Below are positions 45,250-57,824 of a stretch of 64,000 nucleotides of DNA, piece by piece. The notes under the pieces are model-generated. The model saw nothing but the letters and a program-made list of their open reading frames with translations. It made no database searches and was not told the origin of the DNA. The position numbers were made by a program, and so were the translations under genes. The stretch covers positions 1,922,001 through 1,986,000 of the forward strand of contig NZ_CP100762.1 in the NCBI RefSeq assembly GCF_024296665.1. The letters run 5' to 3'. The DNA comes from Salinilacihabitans rarus. Lineage in GTDB: Archaea > Halobacteriota > Halobacteria > Halobacteriales > Natrialbaceae. Positions within the stretch are counted from its first letter, which is position 1, and every line of letters starts with the position of its first letter.

Positions 45250-46134
45250 TCACCGGCCGTCGGACCGCCCGCCGTCCGGGGTCGGCCGGCCGACGCGCGA
45301 GGCGTGGAGGCCCCGGCCGACGACCGCGACGACCGCGAGCGCCAGCGCCACCGTGATCAGGGTGTGCGAGACGTTCAGCACGGTCAGCGCCTCCCAGTCG
45401 ACGACGTCGCCGGCGACGATCTCCTCGAACTGCACCGGCGCGAGCGAGCCGAGGGCGTTCTCGGCGCCGTGCATCAGCATCGCCAGCAGGATGCTCCCGC
45501 CCGAGCCGTTGTAGACCCACGCGAGTAGCACCGAGAAGCCCGTGATCCCGACGAAGTACGCGAGTTGCGACGGCAACGACCACTGGGAGTGGATCGTCGT
45601 CGGATCGAAGAACAGCGGCAGGTGCCAGAGCCCCCACAGGATCCCGACGACGACCGCCGCGGGCGTCGCGCCCAGCCGCGCCTGCAGTTCGGGCTGGGCG
45701 AAGCCGCGCCAGCCGAGTTCCTCCTGCCCGCCGCCGAGGAACGTCGCGAGGACGAGGCCGATCCCGAGAGTGACGACGTCGGGCGAGAACGTCCCGAAGT
45801 CGACGGGTCCGCCCGCGAACTGGGCGACGGCCGCCGCCGCGAGCGTGATCGCGGCCGGGACGCCGATCGCCGCGGCGTACCACTTCGGGTGGACCCGCCA
45901 GCGGACGATCCCCCGCGCCCACTCGCGGAGGCCGTCGCCAGCGGCGACGAGGACGACGGCGGCGGCGATCGCCGGCCCGAGCGCGCTGAGGAAGCCGCTG
46001 ACGATCCAGCGCGTCCACGAGGGGTCCATCTCCAGGACGATGACGATGCCGTTCAGCGACCACGAGATCGCGTACGCGAGGGCGAAAAACGACAGGAGCC
46101 GGTGGTCGGCGATCCAGTTGTCGGTTCGGGTCAC
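45250..46134 (-). CDS. CPBP-family intramembrane metalloprotease
   Basis: A 294-residue protein with about eight membrane helices. The CPBP (Abi/CAAX protease) motifs are GGQEELGWRGFAQPELQ, with the catalytic glutamates and Arg, then GILWGLWHLPLFF and MLMHGAENALG with the later histidine. Such proteins act in CAAX-type processing, bacteriocin immunity or signalling. The start GTG at 46134 is the only one near the first helix. A minus-strand TATA-like GATACGTATC around 46177-46186 and the ACTCAAAC palindrome at 46196 are upstream. Divergent from mutL. Confidence 0.9.
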   Translation of the reverse strand: MTRTDNWIADHRLLSFFALAYAISWSLNGIVIVLEMDPSWTRWIVSGFLSALGPAIAAAVVLVAAGDGLREWARGIVRWRVHPKWYAAAIGVPAAITLAAAAVAQFAGGPVDFGTFSPDVVTLGIGLVLATFLGGGQEELGWRGFAQPELQARLGATPAAVVVGILWGLWHLPLFFDPTTIHSQWSLPSQLAYFVGITGFSVLLAWVYNGSGGSILLAMLMHGAENALGSLAPVQFEEIVAGDVVDWEALTVLNVSHTLITVALALAVVAVVGRGLHASRVGRPTPDGGRSDGR

Positions 46135-46195
46135 GGTGTGTCGGTAGCGCCCGTCCCGGAAAAGGTTGTCTGTTTGATACGTATCGGAATCGCAA

Positions 46196-46211
46196 CTCAA
46201 ACGGAGTTGAG
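46196..46211. promoter_or_regulatory. Palindrome CTCAA-N6-TTGAG upstream of the CPBP gene
   Basis: CTCAAACGGAGTTGAG shares ACTCAAAC and TTGAG with the site at 43325-43340 (12 of 16 core bases identical). It lies between the CPBP start (46134) and mutL (46301). Confidence 0.5.
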
Positions 46212-46300
46212 CGACGCGAGCGGCACGTCGGCGTTCCGAAGTGAACACACTGATAGGCGGCCGCTTCGTACCCGTCGTCGAACGCCGTGGGGATCGACCG

Positions 46301-48409
46301 ATGACAGACGACACCGACATCCGTCCGCTCGACGAGGACACCGTCGCCCGCATCGCCGCCGGCGAGGTGGTCGAGCGGCCCGCCAGCGCCGTCAAGGAAC
46401 TCGTCGAGAACGCCCTCGACGCCGACGCCTCGCGGATCGACGTGGCCGTCGAGGCCGGCGGCACGGAACTGATCCGGGTCGCCGACGACGGCCACGGGAT
46501 GACCGAGGCCGACGCTCGCGCGGCGGTCCGCCAGCACACGACGAGCAAGATCGACGGCCTCGAAGACATCGAGTCCGGCGTCGCCACCCTCGGCTTCCGG
46601 GGGGAGGCCCTGCACACCATCGGCTCGGTCTCGCGGCTGACGGTCGAGACGCGCCCCCGCGGGAGCGCCGAGGCGGGAACGAAACTCGTCTACGAGGGCG
46701 GCGAGGTGACGGGCGTCGAACCGACGGGCTGTCCCGAGGGGACGGCCGTCACGGTCGAGGACCTCTTCTACAACACGCCCGCGCGCCGGAAGTTCCTCAA
46801 GACGACCGCGACGGAGTTCGCCCACGTCAACCGGGTCGTCACCCGCTACGCGCTGGCGAACCCGGACGTGGCCGTCTCGCTCTCCCACGACGGCCGCGAG
46901 GTGTTCGCGACGACCGGTCAGGGCGACCTGCAGGCGGCCGTCCTCGCGGTGTACGGCCGCGAGGTCGCCGCGTCGATGATCCCCGTCGACGCCGGACCCG
47001 ACGACCTCCCGCCGGGTCCCGTCGAGTCCGTCTCGGGGCTCGTCTCCCACCCGGAGACGAACCGTTCGACCCGCGAGTACCTCGCGACGTACGTCAACGG
47101 CCGCGCGGTGACGGCGCCAGCCATCCGCGAGGGGATCATGGGCGCCTACGGCACGCAACTCGGCGGCGACCGCTACCCGTTCGTCGTCTGCTTCCTCGAC
47201 GTCCCCGGGGACGCCGTCGACGTGAACGTCCACCCGCGAAAGCGCGAGGTCCGCTTCGACGACGACGACGCCGTCCGCCGGCAGGTCGACGCCGCCGTCG
47301 AGGCCGCGCTGCTTGACCACGGCCTGCTGCGCTCGCGGGCCCCGCGCGGGCGGTCGGCGCCCGACGAGGCGAGCGTCGAACCCGAGACGCCGGCCGGGGC
47401 GAGGGACACGGCGACGGCGAGTGCCGAGGCCGACTCGCGGAACCCGACCCCCGAACCGACGGGGACGAATCGCCCCGACGGCGTGACGGACGGCGAGTCG
47501 ACCGGCGAGCGTGCGTCGGGGACGAGCGCCGGCGCCGACGCCGAACCCGACGGGACGGCGAGCGCTGGCTCGGCTACCGCCCCCACACCCGAACGAGCGC
47601 CGTCGGCCGACGCCCCCGGGACGAGCGAACCCCGTTCGGACCCGTCCGACCGGCACCCGTCCGCGCGAGGTCGCGAAGCCAGCGCGGACCCGGGCCGCCG
47701 GGAGCGCGAACGGGACGCCGCCGACCGGGCCCGCAAGTTCGCCGAGGCGACCGAACAGCGGACCCTCGACGGCGAGGTCGCGACCGGCGACGCGACGTTC
47801 GACTCGCTGCCGCCGCTTCGGGTGCTCGGCCAGTTGCACGACACGTACCTCGTCTGCGAGACGCCCGACGGCCTCGCGCTGATCGACCAGCACGCCGCCG
47901 ACGAGCGGGTCAACTACGAGCGCCTGCGCGAGGCGTTCGCCGCGGACGCGACCGCGCAGGCGCTGGCCGAACCCGTCGAAATCGAACTCACCGCGGCCGA
48001 GGCGGAGGCGTTCGCGGGCTACCGCGAGGCGCTCGAACGCCTCGGCTTCTACGCCGACCGCGTCGACGACCGGACGGTGGCGGTGACGACCGTACCGGCG
48101 GTGATAGAAGCGACGCTCGAACCGGACCGCCTGCGGGACGTCCTCTCGTCGTTCGTCGAGGGCGACCGAGAGGCCGGCGCCGAGACGGTCGAGGCGCTGG
48201 CCGACGAGTTCCTCGGCGACCTCGCCTGCTACCCGTCGATCACGGGCAACACGTCGCTGACCGAGGGCTCCGTGGTCGACCTGCTCGCGGCGCTGGACGA
48301 CTGCGAGAACCCCTACGCCTGCCCGCACGGCCGGCCCGTGATCGTCCGCATCGACGAGGACGAGATCGAGGACCGCTTCGAGCGCGACTACCCGGGCCAC
48401 GCCGGGTGA
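46301..48409 (+). CDS. mutL: DNA mismatch repair endonuclease MutL
   Basis: A 702-residue MutL. The GHKL ATPase (about 1-330) has ERPASAVKELVENALDADA, DDGHGM and GFRGEALHTI. A long acidic, Gly/Pro/Thr-rich linker occupies about 345-480. The C-terminal endonuclease has DQHA-2x-E-4x-E (DQHAADERVNYE near 527) and ACPHGRP near the end, so it belongs to the nicking type of MutL, not the E. coli type. It pairs with mutS 15 kb upstream. The ATG at 46301 (MTDDTDIRPLDEDTVARIAAG) is the conserved start; a GTG at 46241 adds 20 non-conserved residues. Confidence 0.97.
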   Translation: MTDDTDIRPLDEDTVARIAAGEVVERPASAVKELVENALDADASRIDVAVEAGGTELIRVADDGHGMTEADARAAVRQHTTSKIDGLEDIESGVATLGFRGEALHTIGSVSRLTVETRPRGSAEAGTKLVYEGGEVTGVEPTGCPEGTAVTVEDLFYNTPARRKFLKTTATEFAHVNRVVTRYALANPDVAVSLSHDGREVFATTGQGDLQAAVLAVYGREVAASMIPVDAGPDDLPPGPVESVSGLVSHPETNRSTREYLATYVNGRAVTAPAIREGIMGAYGTQLGGDRYPFVVCFLDVPGDAVDVNVHPRKREVRFDDDDAVRRQVDAAVEAALLDHGLLRSRAPRGRSAPDEASVEPETPAGARDTATASAEADSRNPTPEPTGTNRPDGVTDGESTGERASGTSAGADAEPDGTASAGSATAPTPERAPSADAPGTSEPRSDPSDRHPSARGREASADPGRRERERDAADRARKFAEATEQRTLDGEVATGDATFDSLPPLRVLGQLHDTYLVCETPDGLALIDQHAADERVNYERLREAFAADATAQALAEPVEIELTAAEAEAFAGYREALERLGFYADRVDDRTVAVTTVPAVIEATLEPDRLRDVLSSFVEGDREAGAETVEALADEFLGDLACYPSITGNTSLTEGSVVDLLAALDDCENPYACPHGRPVIVRIDEDEIEDRFERDYPGHAG

Positions 48410-53094: not shown

Positions 53095-53805
53095 TCAGTC
53101 CTCCGCCGCGTCCATCGAGTCCTCCTCGTAGGCCTCCTCGTACCGCGCCATCGCGTCCTCGTAGCCCCGCTGTGCGAGGTCGTAGGTCTCGCGCAGGTCC
53201 GCGATCGGCGTCTCCGTCGCGTCGACGCGCAGGTCGTGGGTGAACGGCGTCAGTTCGTACTCCTCGGTCGTCCGCACGAGCAACGCGGCGCTCTGGATCG
53301 GGAGTTCCTCGCGCCTGTCGCCGCCCTCGGCGTGGCCCGCCTCCAGTGCGTCGATCAGGCGCTTCGCGAGCGGTTCGTCCCGGTCGCCCTCGCGGTAGGT
53401 CGCCGCGGTCGCCTCGATCACCGACTCGCCGGTCAGGAGGTTGCCCGCGACGGTGAAGGTCTCGCCCTCGACGTGGCCGTACCAGTCCTTGCACTCCTCG
53501 CCGGAGAACGCGAAGGTGCCGTCGGCGTCGACGCCGTGTAACTGGCGCTGGGACGCGCCGTCGTCGGCGGCGAGCAGCGCCTCGAGGGCGTCCTCGACGG
53601 CGAGTCCCTCGTCGACGTACCGGATCCCGCGCCGGCCGAGGTCGACGTTCACGAGGCTCTGGGTCGCCACCGCGCCGTTCTCGCTGGCGAACGGACAGAG
53701 GGTGCCGACGCCCGGCAGGCGGGTCGTGACCGCGACGCCGAAGCGTCGCCGTTCGTCGCCGTTCCCGTCCTCGTACCGTTCGCGGACGCAGATGCTGAAG
53801 GTCAC
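53095..53805 (-). CDS. DUF1028 family protein (Ntn-hydrolase-like), intact copy
   Basis: A 236-residue protein. It starts GTG-TFSICVRERYEDGN and has the DUF1028 features RRFGVAVTTRLPGVGTLCPFASENGAVATQ, RRGIRYVDEG, DASQRQ-type RQLHGVD, TFAFSGEECKDWYGH, VAGNLLTG, GGDRREELPIQSAALLV. These proteins have an Ntn-hydrolase-like fold and often lie near peptidases; the activity is unknown. It follows a subtilisin gene, 75 bases upstream on the same strand with a T-run between (53831-53836). A broken relative is at 55606-55737. Confidence 0.88.
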   Translation of the reverse strand: MTFSICVRERYEDGNGDERRRFGVAVTTRLPGVGTLCPFASENGAVATQSLVNVDLGRRGIRYVDEGLAVEDALEALLAADDGASQRQLHGVDADGTFAFSGEECKDWYGHVEGETFTVAGNLLTGESVIEATAATYREGDRDEPLAKRLIDALEAGHAEGGDRREELPIQSAALLVRTTEEYELTPFTHDLRVDATETPIADLRETYDLAQRGYEDAMARYEEAYEEDSMDAAED

Positions 53806-53879: not shown

Positions 53880-55409
53880 TTACGCGCCCTCGATGCGCTC
53901 GCGCAGGCTGATGCCGGCGTGGCCGCTCGCACCCACGGCGATGCCGAGCAGGTACAGCGCGGTCAGCACCACCCCCAGCGACGCGCTGGCGGCGCGCGAG
54001 TCGGTCGCGTCCTGTCGGTTCGACAGGTCGGCACAGACCTCGACGATCTCGCGGGTCGCGCGGGTCGTCAGGCTGTTGGGGTGGTCCGCGAGCGTCGTGG
54101 CGATCGGCGGGCTGATCCGGTAGTACAGTCCGACGAGCGCGCGCCCGATCGGCGTCGCCGACATCGACTCGTCGCGGAACCGCCGCAGCGAGTCGAGCGT
54201 GTCGCTCTCGCCGGCGGTCGCCGTCGTGATGTAACAGCCGCCGCCGTCGTCGTTCTGACACGCGGTCTCGCCGTCACACGTGCTCGGCTCCTCGAGGCCG
54301 AGCGAGGCCGCGACGTTGAGCCGACCGTAGCCCTGGTCCGCCTCACACCGGCAGATGTCGTCGGCCCCGTCGCGCAGTTGCTGGCGGGCATCGCTGGCGG
54401 AGGCGCCGTTGGCGATCAACACCGCGCCACCGCCGGCGACGTGCGGGCACGCCATCGACGTGCCGTCGAGCGTGTTGTAGCCGCCATCGTTGTACGTCGA
54501 GTAGACGCCGGCGCCGGGTGCGGCGATCTCGATCTCGGGGCCGGTCGAGGAGAACGATGCCAGGTCGTCGTTCTCGTCGGTCGCGCTGACGGCGACGACC
54601 TCCGGGTAGGCCGCCGGATGGCTCACGCAGTCCGAACAGGGGCCGTCGTTGCCGGCGGCCGCCACCAGCAGGACGCCCTCGCTGTCGGCGTACTGGACGG
54701 CGTCCTCGACGACCGAGGAGGCGCTGCCGCCGAGGCTCATGCTCCCGACGTCGTAGCCCTGATCGGCCGTCCACTCGATGCCGGCGGCGATGTCGTCGTA
54801 GTACCCGCTGCCCTGGCTGTCGAGTACCTTCGCGGCGTGCAGGGTCGCCTCGGGGGCGACGCCGACGACGCCCTCGTTGTTGTCGACGGCGGCGACGGTG
54901 CCCGCACAGTGGGTGCCGTGGCCGTTGTCGTCGTCCCACGAACCCGTGCCGGTGAAGTCCGCGCCCGCGCCGAGGTTGGCCTCCAGGTCCGGGTGGTCCT
55001 CGTCGATGCCGGTGTCGATGACGGCGACGTCCGCGCCGTCGCCGGTGTAGCCGCCGTCGTGTGCGACGTCGGCCCTGACGGTCTCGATGCCGTACGGCGT
55101 CGACTGCGCCAGCGCCTCCATCGTGCCGTTCTCTTCGACGTACCGGACGTTCGGGTTGTTCTCGAGGGCCTCGATCGCCGCCTCGGAGAACCGGCCCGCG
55201 ACCGCCTTTCCGATCGATCCGAAGTCGAGTTCGCGACGCACCGATTCCGCCGCCGCACGAACGTCGCCGAGGCCGCCATCGGCGACGACGCCGACGACGT
55301 GACCCACACTTTCGTCGTTCGCGGATGCCTGTCCCGCCAGCGCGGCCGTACCGACGCTTGCACCGACTCCTCGAATGACCGTTCGCCGTGAGATTCGATC
55401 ATTTGCCAT
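53880..55409 (-). CDS. Secreted subtilisin-like protease with C-terminal CFI-box
   Basis: A 509-residue S8 protease (halolysin type). Twin-arginine signal at SRRTVIRGVGASVGTAA (R8-R9), propeptide about 30-105, catalytic triad D132 (VIDTG), H164 (GHGTH) and S318 (GTSMACPH), and oxyanion Asn N254. After the protease domain, C392-Y-I begins a segment to about 445 (LRRFRDESMSATPIGRALVGLYYRISPP) that matches the CFI-box-CTERM pattern, and residues 476-498 are a hydrophobic helix. The CFI-box is probably a surface or processing signal. The paralogue at 55785 lacks it. Confidence 0.93.
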   Translation of the reverse strand: MANDRISRRTVIRGVGASVGTAALAGQASANDESVGHVVGVVADGGLGDVRAAAESVRRELDFGSIGKAVAGRFSEAAIEALENNPNVRYVEENGTMEALAQSTPYGIETVRADVAHDGGYTGDGADVAVIDTGIDEDHPDLEANLGAGADFTGTGSWDDDNGHGTHCAGTVAAVDNNEGVVGVAPEATLHAAKVLDSQGSGYYDDIAAGIEWTADQGYDVGSMSLGGSASSVVEDAVQYADSEGVLLVAAAGNDGPCSDCVSHPAAYPEVVAVSATDENDDLASFSSTGPEIEIAAPGAGVYSTYNDGGYNTLDGTSMACPHVAGGGAVLIANGASASDARQQLRDGADDICRCEADQGYGRLNVAASLGLEEPSTCDGETACQNDDGGGCYITTATAGESDTLDSLRRFRDESMSATPIGRALVGLYYRISPPIATTLADHPNSLTTRATREIVEVCADLSNRQDATDSRAASASLGVVLTALYLLGIAVGASGHAGISLRERIEGA

Positions 55410-55453: not shown

Positions 55454-55605
55454 CCACCCGTTCGTTAACGATATGCTATTATAATTTCCTGTTTTTATCT
55501 CTACGAGCGTATTTGCCCAAGATTTAAATTAGGGAGCGTGCGGGAGTCGTCCGTGCGGTCGGCACCTCGGCGGAGGCCGGCGAGTCGTCATCGAACCGGG
55601 GGTCG

Positions 55606-55737
55606 ACTGCGCCGTTCTCGCTGGCGACCGGACAGGGGGTGCCGACGCCCGGGACGGGTCGTGGCCGCGACGCCGAAGCGGCGGTGGATCTCGCCGTCGT
55701 TCTCGTACTCCTCGCGGACGCAGTCGCTGAACGGCCG
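55606..55737 (-). pseudogene. DUF1028 gene remnant
   Basis: About 130 bases read, on the minus strand, SDCVREEYENDGEIHRRFGVA then (after a frame change) a garbled tail. They align with the start of the intact DUF1028 gene (53805 downward): ICVRERYEDGNGDERRRFGVA and the following LPGVGT region. A two-base deletion in the CCCGG stretch near 55650 shifts the frame; the GTG start is lost, and the remainder of the gene is absent. It sits between the two subtilisin genes. Confidence 0.75.
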
Positions 55738-55784: not shown

Positions 55785-57269
55785 TCAGAGCGACTGCGTG
55801 TCGGTCGTCTCGTTGCCCGCGGCGTCCGTGACCGCAAGGCGGACCGCGTCCGCCGCGCCGCGCGTGCGGAGGCCGTGCTCGCCCGACGCGCTCGCGCCGG
55901 AGACCGAGGACGTCTCCTCGTCGACGACGACGTCGCCGTCGAGCAGTTCGCTGGTCACCGACGCGAGGTCGCCGTCGGCGTCGGAGACCGACCACTCGAC
56001 GTCCGCACGGGTCCACGGCCCGGAGGTCCGGGTGGAGACGACGAACTCGTCGATCGAGGGCGCCGAGTCGCCGTCACCGCCGCCGCCGTCGTCGATGCCG
56101 AGCGCCGCGGCGACGTTGACCCGGCCGTAGCCCTGTTCGTTCTCGCCGAGGCCGACGTCGTCGGCGGTTTCGCGGAGGCGCTGGCGCGCTTCCGTGTCGG
56201 TGTAGCCGTTGGCCATCAACTGGGCGGCGGCGCCGGAGACGTGCGGGCACGCCATCGACGTCCCCGAGAACCGGTCGTAGTCGCTCCGCGGGATCGACGA
56301 GAGCACGTCGACGCCGGGCGCGGCGAGTTCGACCTCCGGCCCCGTCGAGGAGAAGTCCGCGAGGTCGTCGTTCTCGTCGGTCGCGCTGACGGCGACGACC
56401 TCCGGGTAGGCCGCGGGGTAGCCGACGCAGTCCGAGCAGGGGCCGTCGTTGCCCGCCGCGGCGACGAGCAACGTTCCCTGCTGGCGGGCGTAGGCGCAGG
56501 CGTCCTCGACGACCGAGGAGGCGTCGCCGCCGAGGCTCATGCTCCCGACGTCGTAACCCTGATCGGCCGTCCACTCGATGCCGGCGGCGATGTCGTCGTA
56601 CGACCCGCTGCCACAGCAGTCGAGTACCTTCACCGCGTGGAGCGTGGCGTCGGGCGCGACGCCGACGACGCCCGTGTCGTCGTCGACGGCGGCGACGGTA
56701 CCCGCACAGTGGGTGCCGTGGTCGTTGTCGTCGTCCCACGCCTCGTAGCAGGTGCTGATGTCGTTCGGGTCACAGAAGAGGCCACTGGAGCAGTCGTTCT
56801 GACAGGCGGCCTCCTGTGTGGCCCACCCCTCGCCGAGGTTGTCCGCGAGGTCCTCGTGAGTGGCGTCGATGCCGGTGTCGATGATCGCCACGTCGGCGCC
56901 GTCGCCCGTCTCGCCCGCATCGATCGCGAGGTCCGCCCCGACGGTCTCGATGCCGTACGGCGTCGTCTGGGCGAGCGCGCGCATCGTCCCGTTCCTCTCG
57001 ACGTACCGGACGTTCGGATCGTTCCCGAGGGCCTCGATGGCCGCCTCGGAGAACCGGCCAGCGACCGCCTTTCCGATCGATCCGAAGTCGAGTTCGCGCT
57101 TGACCGACGTCGCCGCGCTACGGGCCGCGCTCGCGCCGCGGTCGGGTTCGACGCCGACCACGTACTCGTCGCCCTCGCTCGCGGTCGCCTGTCCGGCGAG
57201 CGCCGTGCCGGCGACGCCGGCGCCGACGCCGCGAAGTACCGTCCGTCGTGAGATGTGCTCATTTGTCAT
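55785..57269 (-). CDS. Secreted subtilisin-like protease, paralogue with Ig-like tail
   Basis: A 494-residue S8 protease. Twin-arginine signal SRRTVLRGVGAGVAGTA (R8-R9), propeptide similar to the first copy, triad D131, H184 and S338, oxyanion Asn N274. An extra 25-residue insertion (about 151-177) holds four cysteines (C156, C160, C166, C174), likely disulfides in the extracellular enzyme. After residue 400 a Gly-rich linker leads to an Ig-like domain (SIDEFVVSTRTSGPWTRADVEWSVSDADGDL). There is no CFI-box or terminal helix. Most of the catalytic domain is nearly identical to the 53880 gene. Confidence 0.93.
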   Translation of the reverse strand: MTNEHISRRTVLRGVGAGVAGTALAGQATASEGDEYVVGVEPDRGASAARSAATSVKRELDFGSIGKAVAGRFSEAAIEALGNDPNVRYVERNGTMRALAQTTPYGIETVGADLAIDAGETGDGADVAIIDTGIDATHEDLADNLGEGWATQEAACQNDCSSGLFCDPNDISTCYEAWDDDNDHGTHCAGTVAAVDDDTGVVGVAPDATLHAVKVLDCCGSGSYDDIAAGIEWTADQGYDVGSMSLGGDASSVVEDACAYARQQGTLLVAAAGNDGPCSDCVGYPAAYPEVVAVSATDENDDLADFSSTGPEVELAAPGVDVLSSIPRSDYDRFSGTSMACPHVSGAAAQLMANGYTDTEARQRLRETADDVGLGENEQGYGRVNVAAALGIDDGGGGDGDSAPSIDEFVVSTRTSGPWTRADVEWSVSDADGDLASVTSELLDGDVVVDEETSSVSGASASGEHGLRTRGAADAVRLAVTDAAGNETTDTQSL

Positions 57270-57440: not shown

Positions 57441-57464
57441 TCGCGGCTGCGGTCGGTGTTCCCT

Positions 57465-57824
57465 ATGGGATTGATGAGCAAAATCCTCGGCGGCGGCCAG
57501 TCCCGGTCGGCCGAGGACTACGTCGAACTCGACCTCGACGACGTCGCCGGCGGCGGCAGCGAGGCGACGATGCACGTCCACGTCGCTGAGATCGACGGCC
57601 AGGCGTCGGTCATCGACATCAAAGACGCCGTCTACGACGGCGACGTCGTCGTCGCCGACATCACCCGCCTGCGGACGAAAGACAGCACGGTCGAGCACAT
57701 CATGGACGAACTCCGACAGGTGGCACAGGAGGTCGACGGCGACATCGTCCAGAAGGGCGACGACCAGATCATCGTCACTCCCACCGGCGTCCGGGTCGGG
57801 CGGGAGAAACTCGGGAAGCGGTAA
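57465..57824 (+). CDS. sepF: Cell division protein SepF
   Basis: A 119-residue archaeal SepF, the membrane anchor of FtsZ. The N-terminal amphipathic helix MGLMSKILGG is the membrane-targeting sequence; an acidic linker (DYVELDLDDVAGG) precedes the SepF domain with HVHVAEIDGQASVIDIKDAVYDG and VADITRLRTKDSTVEHIMDELRQVAQEVDGDIVQ. Essential in Haloferax. ATG at 57465 matches the conserved MGLM start (an ATG at 57474 gives a shorter version). Confidence 0.95.
   Translation: MGLMSKILGGGQSRSAEDYVELDLDDVAGGGSEATMHVHVAEIDGQASVIDIKDAVYDGDVVVADITRLRTKDSTVEHIMDELRQVAQEVDGDIVQKGDDQIIVTPTGVRVGREKLGKR

Follow-up and report, generated by a model that had tools for sequence, protein, structure and literature searches.

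Two related S8 subtilase genes lie in tandem in the window, the whole stretch of 64,000 nucleotides of Salinilacihabitans rarus DNA analyzed in this study, and the encoded proteases differ in their C-terminal tails. One protease (53880..55409, minus strand) ends in a CFI-box followed by a hydrophobic helix, and its paralogue (55785..57269, minus strand) ends in a predicted Ig-like domain. It is somewhat probable that the CFI copy works at the cell surface, tethered to the membrane, with its box serving docking or association, and that the Ig copy is not tethered. CFI-tailed S8 proteases are an already known kind of protein; the novel point is that one tail type is carried by both exported and leaderless proteins.

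Two S8 subtilases with different C-terminal tails

Both proteases are S8 subtilases, scoring 190.7 and 204.9 bits against Peptidase_S8 (Pfam cut-off, 21.8), and are predicted to be proteolytically active; Peptidase_S8 matches number seven genome-wide, including a partial one. The CFI copy has 509 aa from its ATG, with a twin-arginine start that is readable in the sequence and gives no match to Pfam TAT_signal, an I9-like prodomain just under the Pfam cut-off, and a Peptidase_S8 domain at residues 123-349 (54363..55043, minus strand; PF00082, E 4.4e-56). The Asp, His, Asn and Ser motifs that we take, from the general S8 pattern, to form the active site are present, as read by eye.

The CFI-box occupies residues 392-446 of 509 (54072..54236, minus strand) and is preceded by a DDGGG linker. 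It matches NF041770 (CFI_box_CTERM, NCBIfam) with 56.7 bits and E 1.6e-15 against a cut-off of 40, and the protein belongs to this family by its score over the curated cut-off, the position of the box near the C-terminus and the Cys-aromatic-Ile start of the box. This start is CYI instead of CFI; of the 76 loci whose motif was parsed, no other has Tyr here. A whole-genome profile search of the 3.62 Mb genome found this one CFI-box only at E <= 1, and none of the 14 control genomes had a match above the CFI_box_CTERM cut-off. A hydrophobic helix at residues 476-494 (53928..53984, minus strand; 19-residue Kyte-Doolittle mean 2.07) follows as a predicted membrane anchor, 84 residues from the box Cys, with a net charge of -2 in the 25 residues before it and 0 after it. 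The earlier note, made from the letters alone, had quoted tail words, a CFI-box tail and a final hydrophobic helix for this protease and had proposed a profile search as the check. The quoted words and the helix are all there, and the profile matches this protease over the cut-off and gives no match to the paralogue.

A structure model of the CFI tail, built from an alignment that contained no extended-tail relatives, is all-helical (mean pLDDT 79, pTM 0.48) and ends in a helix at 90-127. No PDB chain matched the CFI-box profile at E <= 10, and a fold search with the tail model gave weak matches, none convincing (Foldseek E 0.56; Z 3.1); no new fold is claimed for this modelled tail.

The paralogue has 494 aa and a twin-arginine start that stays below the Pfam TAT_signal cut-off. 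Its tail (55788..56066, minus strand) is predicted by single-sequence AlphaFold2 to be a 7-strand sandwich (pLDDT 91.5 in the best model and 40-53 in the other four). Foldseek with this model gave nothing at E <= 1e-3, the top rows being mainly GH2 enzymes from E 1.7e-3, in which we take the matched portion to be an Ig-like domain, and a PKD domain at 4.3e-3. A PDB profile search with the tail gave nothing below E 1.8, and Pfam on the tail itself reached a best E of 0.5; among 14 related Ig-type tails, Big_13, Big_9 or PKD_4 was matched by one or two members each (best 3.4e-5). The Ig-like ending that had been read for the paralogue is upheld mainly by the modelled sandwich and less by family matches, and the term Ig-like is meant here as a call on fold. 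N-terminal lipid anchors depend on a Cys in the signal region, and none is expected on either protease, since the signal regions of both, as read in the sequence, are without Cys.

The tandem locus and the age of the two tails

Both protease genes sit between a SepF gene (57456..57824, plus strand; PF04472, E 1.3e-13) and a DUF1028 gene (53095..53805, minus strand; PF06267, E 1.1e-60). Both are conserved neighbours: in 20 related stretches of 10-15 kb each, chosen around S8 or CFI matches, the window SepF was matched in 14 and the window DUF1028 protein in 11, and the same two neighbours occur in genomes whose S8 protease is without a CFI tail. Between the proteases lies a frame-broken remnant of a DUF1028 N-terminus (55605..55734, minus strand), detected by tblastn with the window DUF1028 protein (E 2.2e-8) as two pieces in different frames. 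The remnant is seen in the window only, being absent from all 20 related stretches at E <= 1e-3, and it suggests that the duplicated unit may once have included DUF1028. A pair with the Ig copy upstream and the CFI copy downstream is found in the window and in genomes G349 and G213; in the pair of genome G101, the upstream copy (L158) carries two Ig-like stretches on a different backbone. The remaining stretches hold a single copy, either CFI or Ig, and many S8 relatives are tail-less.

Parts of the two catalytic domains in the window look homogenized by gene conversion, with the tails left distinct. Between the two genes, 62 of 75 fourfold sites are identical in residues 50-110 plus 158-242 and 54 of 95 in the remainder of residues 1-380 (Fisher p 4e-4), while the CFI gene and its G101 relative agree at 28 of 55 in the same segments (p 2e-4 versus 62 of 75); these p-values are optimistic, as the segments were picked after viewing the identity profile.

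In a first catalytic-domain tree of 47 rows, long branches met, and the tree was rebuilt with 39 rows, leaving out five long rows and three duplicate rows (L171 among those dropped). In the 39-row tree, 10 Ig-labelled rows lie on one side of a branch (100/99) with the window CFI copy outside, and the Ig clade that holds the window's Ig copy spans six genus codes. The CFI rows need two changes in this tree, forced by starred branches, and constraining them to one clade was not rejected (p-AU 0.334). The window CFI copy was placed with its G101, G071 and G043 relatives in the 47-row tree (88/96) and apart from them, with weak support (51/49), in the 39-row tree. By these trees, the CFI and Ig lineages are older than the window genome, and neither tail is favoured as the first.

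It had been claimed that the tails were swapped or gained after duplication. Two paralogues with different tails are indeed present. A recent tail swap in the window genome was considered and rejected, and appears unlikely because the Ig copy belongs to the 100/99 clade, which spans six genus codes, and tandems of an Ig and a CFI copy also occur in G349 and G213. Over longer times tails do move, since Ig-like tails also sit on the backbones of L171, which is distant, and of L158, which groups with tail-less S8 proteases; a single Ig clade is accordingly true of the main group only, with these two falling outside.

CFI-box tails in haloarchaea

Of 341 genomes sampled from the class, 32 have a CFI-box match, 30 of them over the cut-off. 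The haloarchaeal tails fall into two forms, one bacterial-like and the other extended and bearing a hydrophobic helix. In a 44-row tail tree all extended tails cluster together (100/100); among them, 10 S8 tails drawn from several genus codes form a group (94/91), and 16 leaderless tails do so at only 51/0. The hydrophobic helix is present in all 10 CFI-tailed S8 tails examined, with the best 19-residue mean ranging from 1.59 to 2.43 and three tails borderline (1.59-1.60).

The sporadic distribution, together with the many tail-less S8 relatives, speaks for the tail being an inherited, near-neutral appendage, with both proteases doing the same job in the same place. This seems quite improbable, because the 10 S8 tails of the 94/91 group keep the box motif and the helix across several genus codes, and the window protease retains both, although its catalytic domain looks converted in parts.

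The leaderless haloarchaeal carriers showed no export signal in any of the 15 proteins tested with a heuristic (L011 was outside the tested set), and Pfam on four of them gave nothing credible. Over the 25 residues preceding the helix, the net charge of the 10 S8 tails lies between -4 and 0 and that of 15 leaderless tails between +1 and +10 (L011 was left out, having no helix in its open frame), without overlap; the Mann-Whitney p of 3e-5 overstates independence, these being two related groups. Arg and Lys are more numerous before the helix than after it in 15 of 15 leaderless tails, counted over uneven flanks of 25 versus up to 20 residues, and are even in the 10 S8 tails (2-4 on each side; 3 before and 2 after in the window). 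Positively charged residues tend to remain on the inner side of the membrane, and the box of the leaderless tails is therefore predicted to lie inside, given the Arg/Lys excess before the helix. For the S8 tails the positive-inside rule does not orient the helix, because the counts are even, and it is the export signal from which an outward orientation is predicted.

A second Cys, in the helix after the box, is found in all 25 tails of the charge set and is absent in L011. An HHSxC motif stands at the box start in all 16 leaderless CFI proteins (L011, L013, L017-L030), 15 of which have the second Cys, and the two together are a possible metal site. At four of five leaderless loci examined, a neighbouring gene encodes a protein that we take to be aspartate-semialdehyde dehydrogenase-like. 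Short twin-arginine CFI-box proteins are encoded at L189:8866-9297 (minus strand) and L183:8407-8790 (minus strand), where the adjacent genes look virus tail-like by eye.

CFI-box carriers in the wider sample

Across all sources, 106 carriers were parsed, and the 82 that were untruncated and of <= 1000 residues were used for counts. S8 is the top Pfam partner of the CFI-box (15 of 82 carriers). A recognizable export signal is missing in 30 of the 82, an upper bound, as some starts were probably miscalled (L081; fragments such as L077). Leaderless carriers include proteins with HNH (L040), GYF_2 (L037) and TPR_14 (L032) domains within the 82 and, outside them, proteins with a cold-shock domain (L178) or Mrr_cat plus WYL (L180). 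The former (L178:1153-1734, plus strand) is encoded on a conjugative plasmid and shows the cold-shock domain, a zinc-ribbon-like stretch seen by eye and then the CFI-box. The latter (L180:2218-3252, plus strand) is encoded on Haloquadratum walsbyi plasmid PL47, where a neighbouring gene is annotated as a restriction endonuclease. One gammaproteobacterial class sample had a CFI match in 19 of 185 genomes, 18 over the cut-off.

Among bacterial and viral carriers, 33 of 44 signal-bearing proteins have a hydrophobic helix after the box versus 2 of 14 leaderless ones (Fisher p 8e-5, with heuristic calls and related rows); the helix is missing in 11 and 12, respectively. In the haloarchaeal sample it follows the box in 5 of 8 signal-bearing and 15 of 16 leaderless proteins. 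The box and the helix thus look like separable parts, judging from these sequences. The box without a helix in 12 of 14 leaderless bacterial or viral carriers, and the borderline hydrophobicity of 3 of 10 S8 tails, would fit a tail that is soluble throughout, a helical domain for partner binding or autoinhibition whose last helix stays out of the membrane. We give such a tail a small chance for the proteases, because the window helix has a mean of 2.07 and those of its relatives reach 2.43.

A broader reading, which we put forward tentatively, is that the CFI-box is no export-sorting tag but a helical module of general use at C-termini, serving at either membrane face. The haloarchaeal extended tail would then lie on the outside in subtilases and on the inside in leaderless proteins, and the pre-helix charge, acidic or neutral in the former, would have become basic in the latter accordingly.

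Membrane tether or sorting tag

The domains, tail identity, hydrophobic helix, synteny and clades were established computationally; the export route, the topology, the tether and any part played by the box and its Cys are our inferences. The CFI copy would be exported through its twin-arginine start and then held on the outer face of the membrane by the C-terminal helix, with the CFI-box, a small helical domain, placed between this anchor and the catalytic domain and most likely serving docking or association rather than being a cut-off signal. The Ig paralogue, without such an anchor, would be free or held via its Ig-like domain. Different surface fates, as the earlier note had supposed, are plausible because an anchor is predicted on one paralogue only.

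Alternatively, the CFI-box may be a true sorting signal, with a putative membrane enzyme cutting near the Cys after export and attaching the protease to a lipid or other carrier, as in MYXO-CTERM. Many exported bacterial carriers do have a Cys after a Gly-rich linker and then a hydrophobic helix, often with a basic end, and NCBIfam names NF041763 "CFI-box putative sorting motif", a model that the relative L016 passes (17.5 versus 15.9 bits). The window also carries a CPBP/Rce1-like membrane protease gene (45250..46620, minus strand; Rce1-like E 8.8e-17), 7.3 kb from the CFI protease; Rce1-like matches total 11 in this genome, this one included. The encoded enzyme belongs to the family of myxosortase, which PMC11980579 describes as a CPBP protease whose cutting depends on a conserved Cys. 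The CFI tail resembles the MYXO-CTERM substrates by its Cys, hydrophobic helix and C-terminal end after the helix, and differs from them by the 84 residues and predicted helical domain between Cys and helix and by the existence of leaderless carriers. A tail of the MYXO-CTERM type would be expected to have a short Cys motif directly before the helix and a basic end and to occur on exported proteins only; the window tail has the 84-residue spacing and a post-helix net charge of 0, and 30 of 82 CFI-box carriers, as an upper bound, are without a recognizable signal.

Sorting is rather unlikely, and weaker than the membrane tether, because leaderless proteins end in the box too and, in the window protease, the box Cys stands 84 residues from the helix. 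In addition, 11 of 44 signal-bearing bacterial or viral carriers have no helix after the box, and box copies number 1-3 in 15 of 18 genomes picked for having the box (7, 9 and 15 in the rest). No membrane protease gene lies directly beside the CFI protease gene. The window CPBP protease was unmatched in the 20 related stretches, which were searched with window genes only and, at 10-15 kb, would miss a gene further off. No recurrent sorting-gene candidate was seen by eye in heuristic ORF lists of six of the eight CFI loci and of five leaderless loci plus L177, the last of which yielded one ORF. Confidence in the tether is held down by the CPBP-type gene in the window and by the even Arg/Lys counts of the S8 tails.

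The tandem pair is a natural test case, as it comprises related subtilases in one cell, at the same locus and probably with the same export route, that differ most in the tail; localizing the two proteases would show what the CFI-box does.

The CFI-box is known from the NCBI family library; a literature search found no paper with "CFI-box" or "CFIATA", and a wider query led to work on other CTERM systems but to no paper containing CFI as a whole word. Like other NF041770 proteins, including bacterial S8 proteases with a CFI-box, the window protease has a C-terminal box over the cut-off and an S8 partner, together with the Gly-rich linker and following helix seen in many of them. It differs from them in being of the haloarchaeal extended type (C-Y/F-I/V-T-T-A), whose loop is shorter by two alignment columns and whose post-box helix carries a second Cys. 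The window protease is also similar to the halolysin SptA, a haloarchaeal subtilisin-like protease with a Cys-containing C-terminal extension; this extension, as described in PMC3158780, is beta jelly-roll-like in its model, which by description sets it apart from the CFI tail modelled as all-helical.
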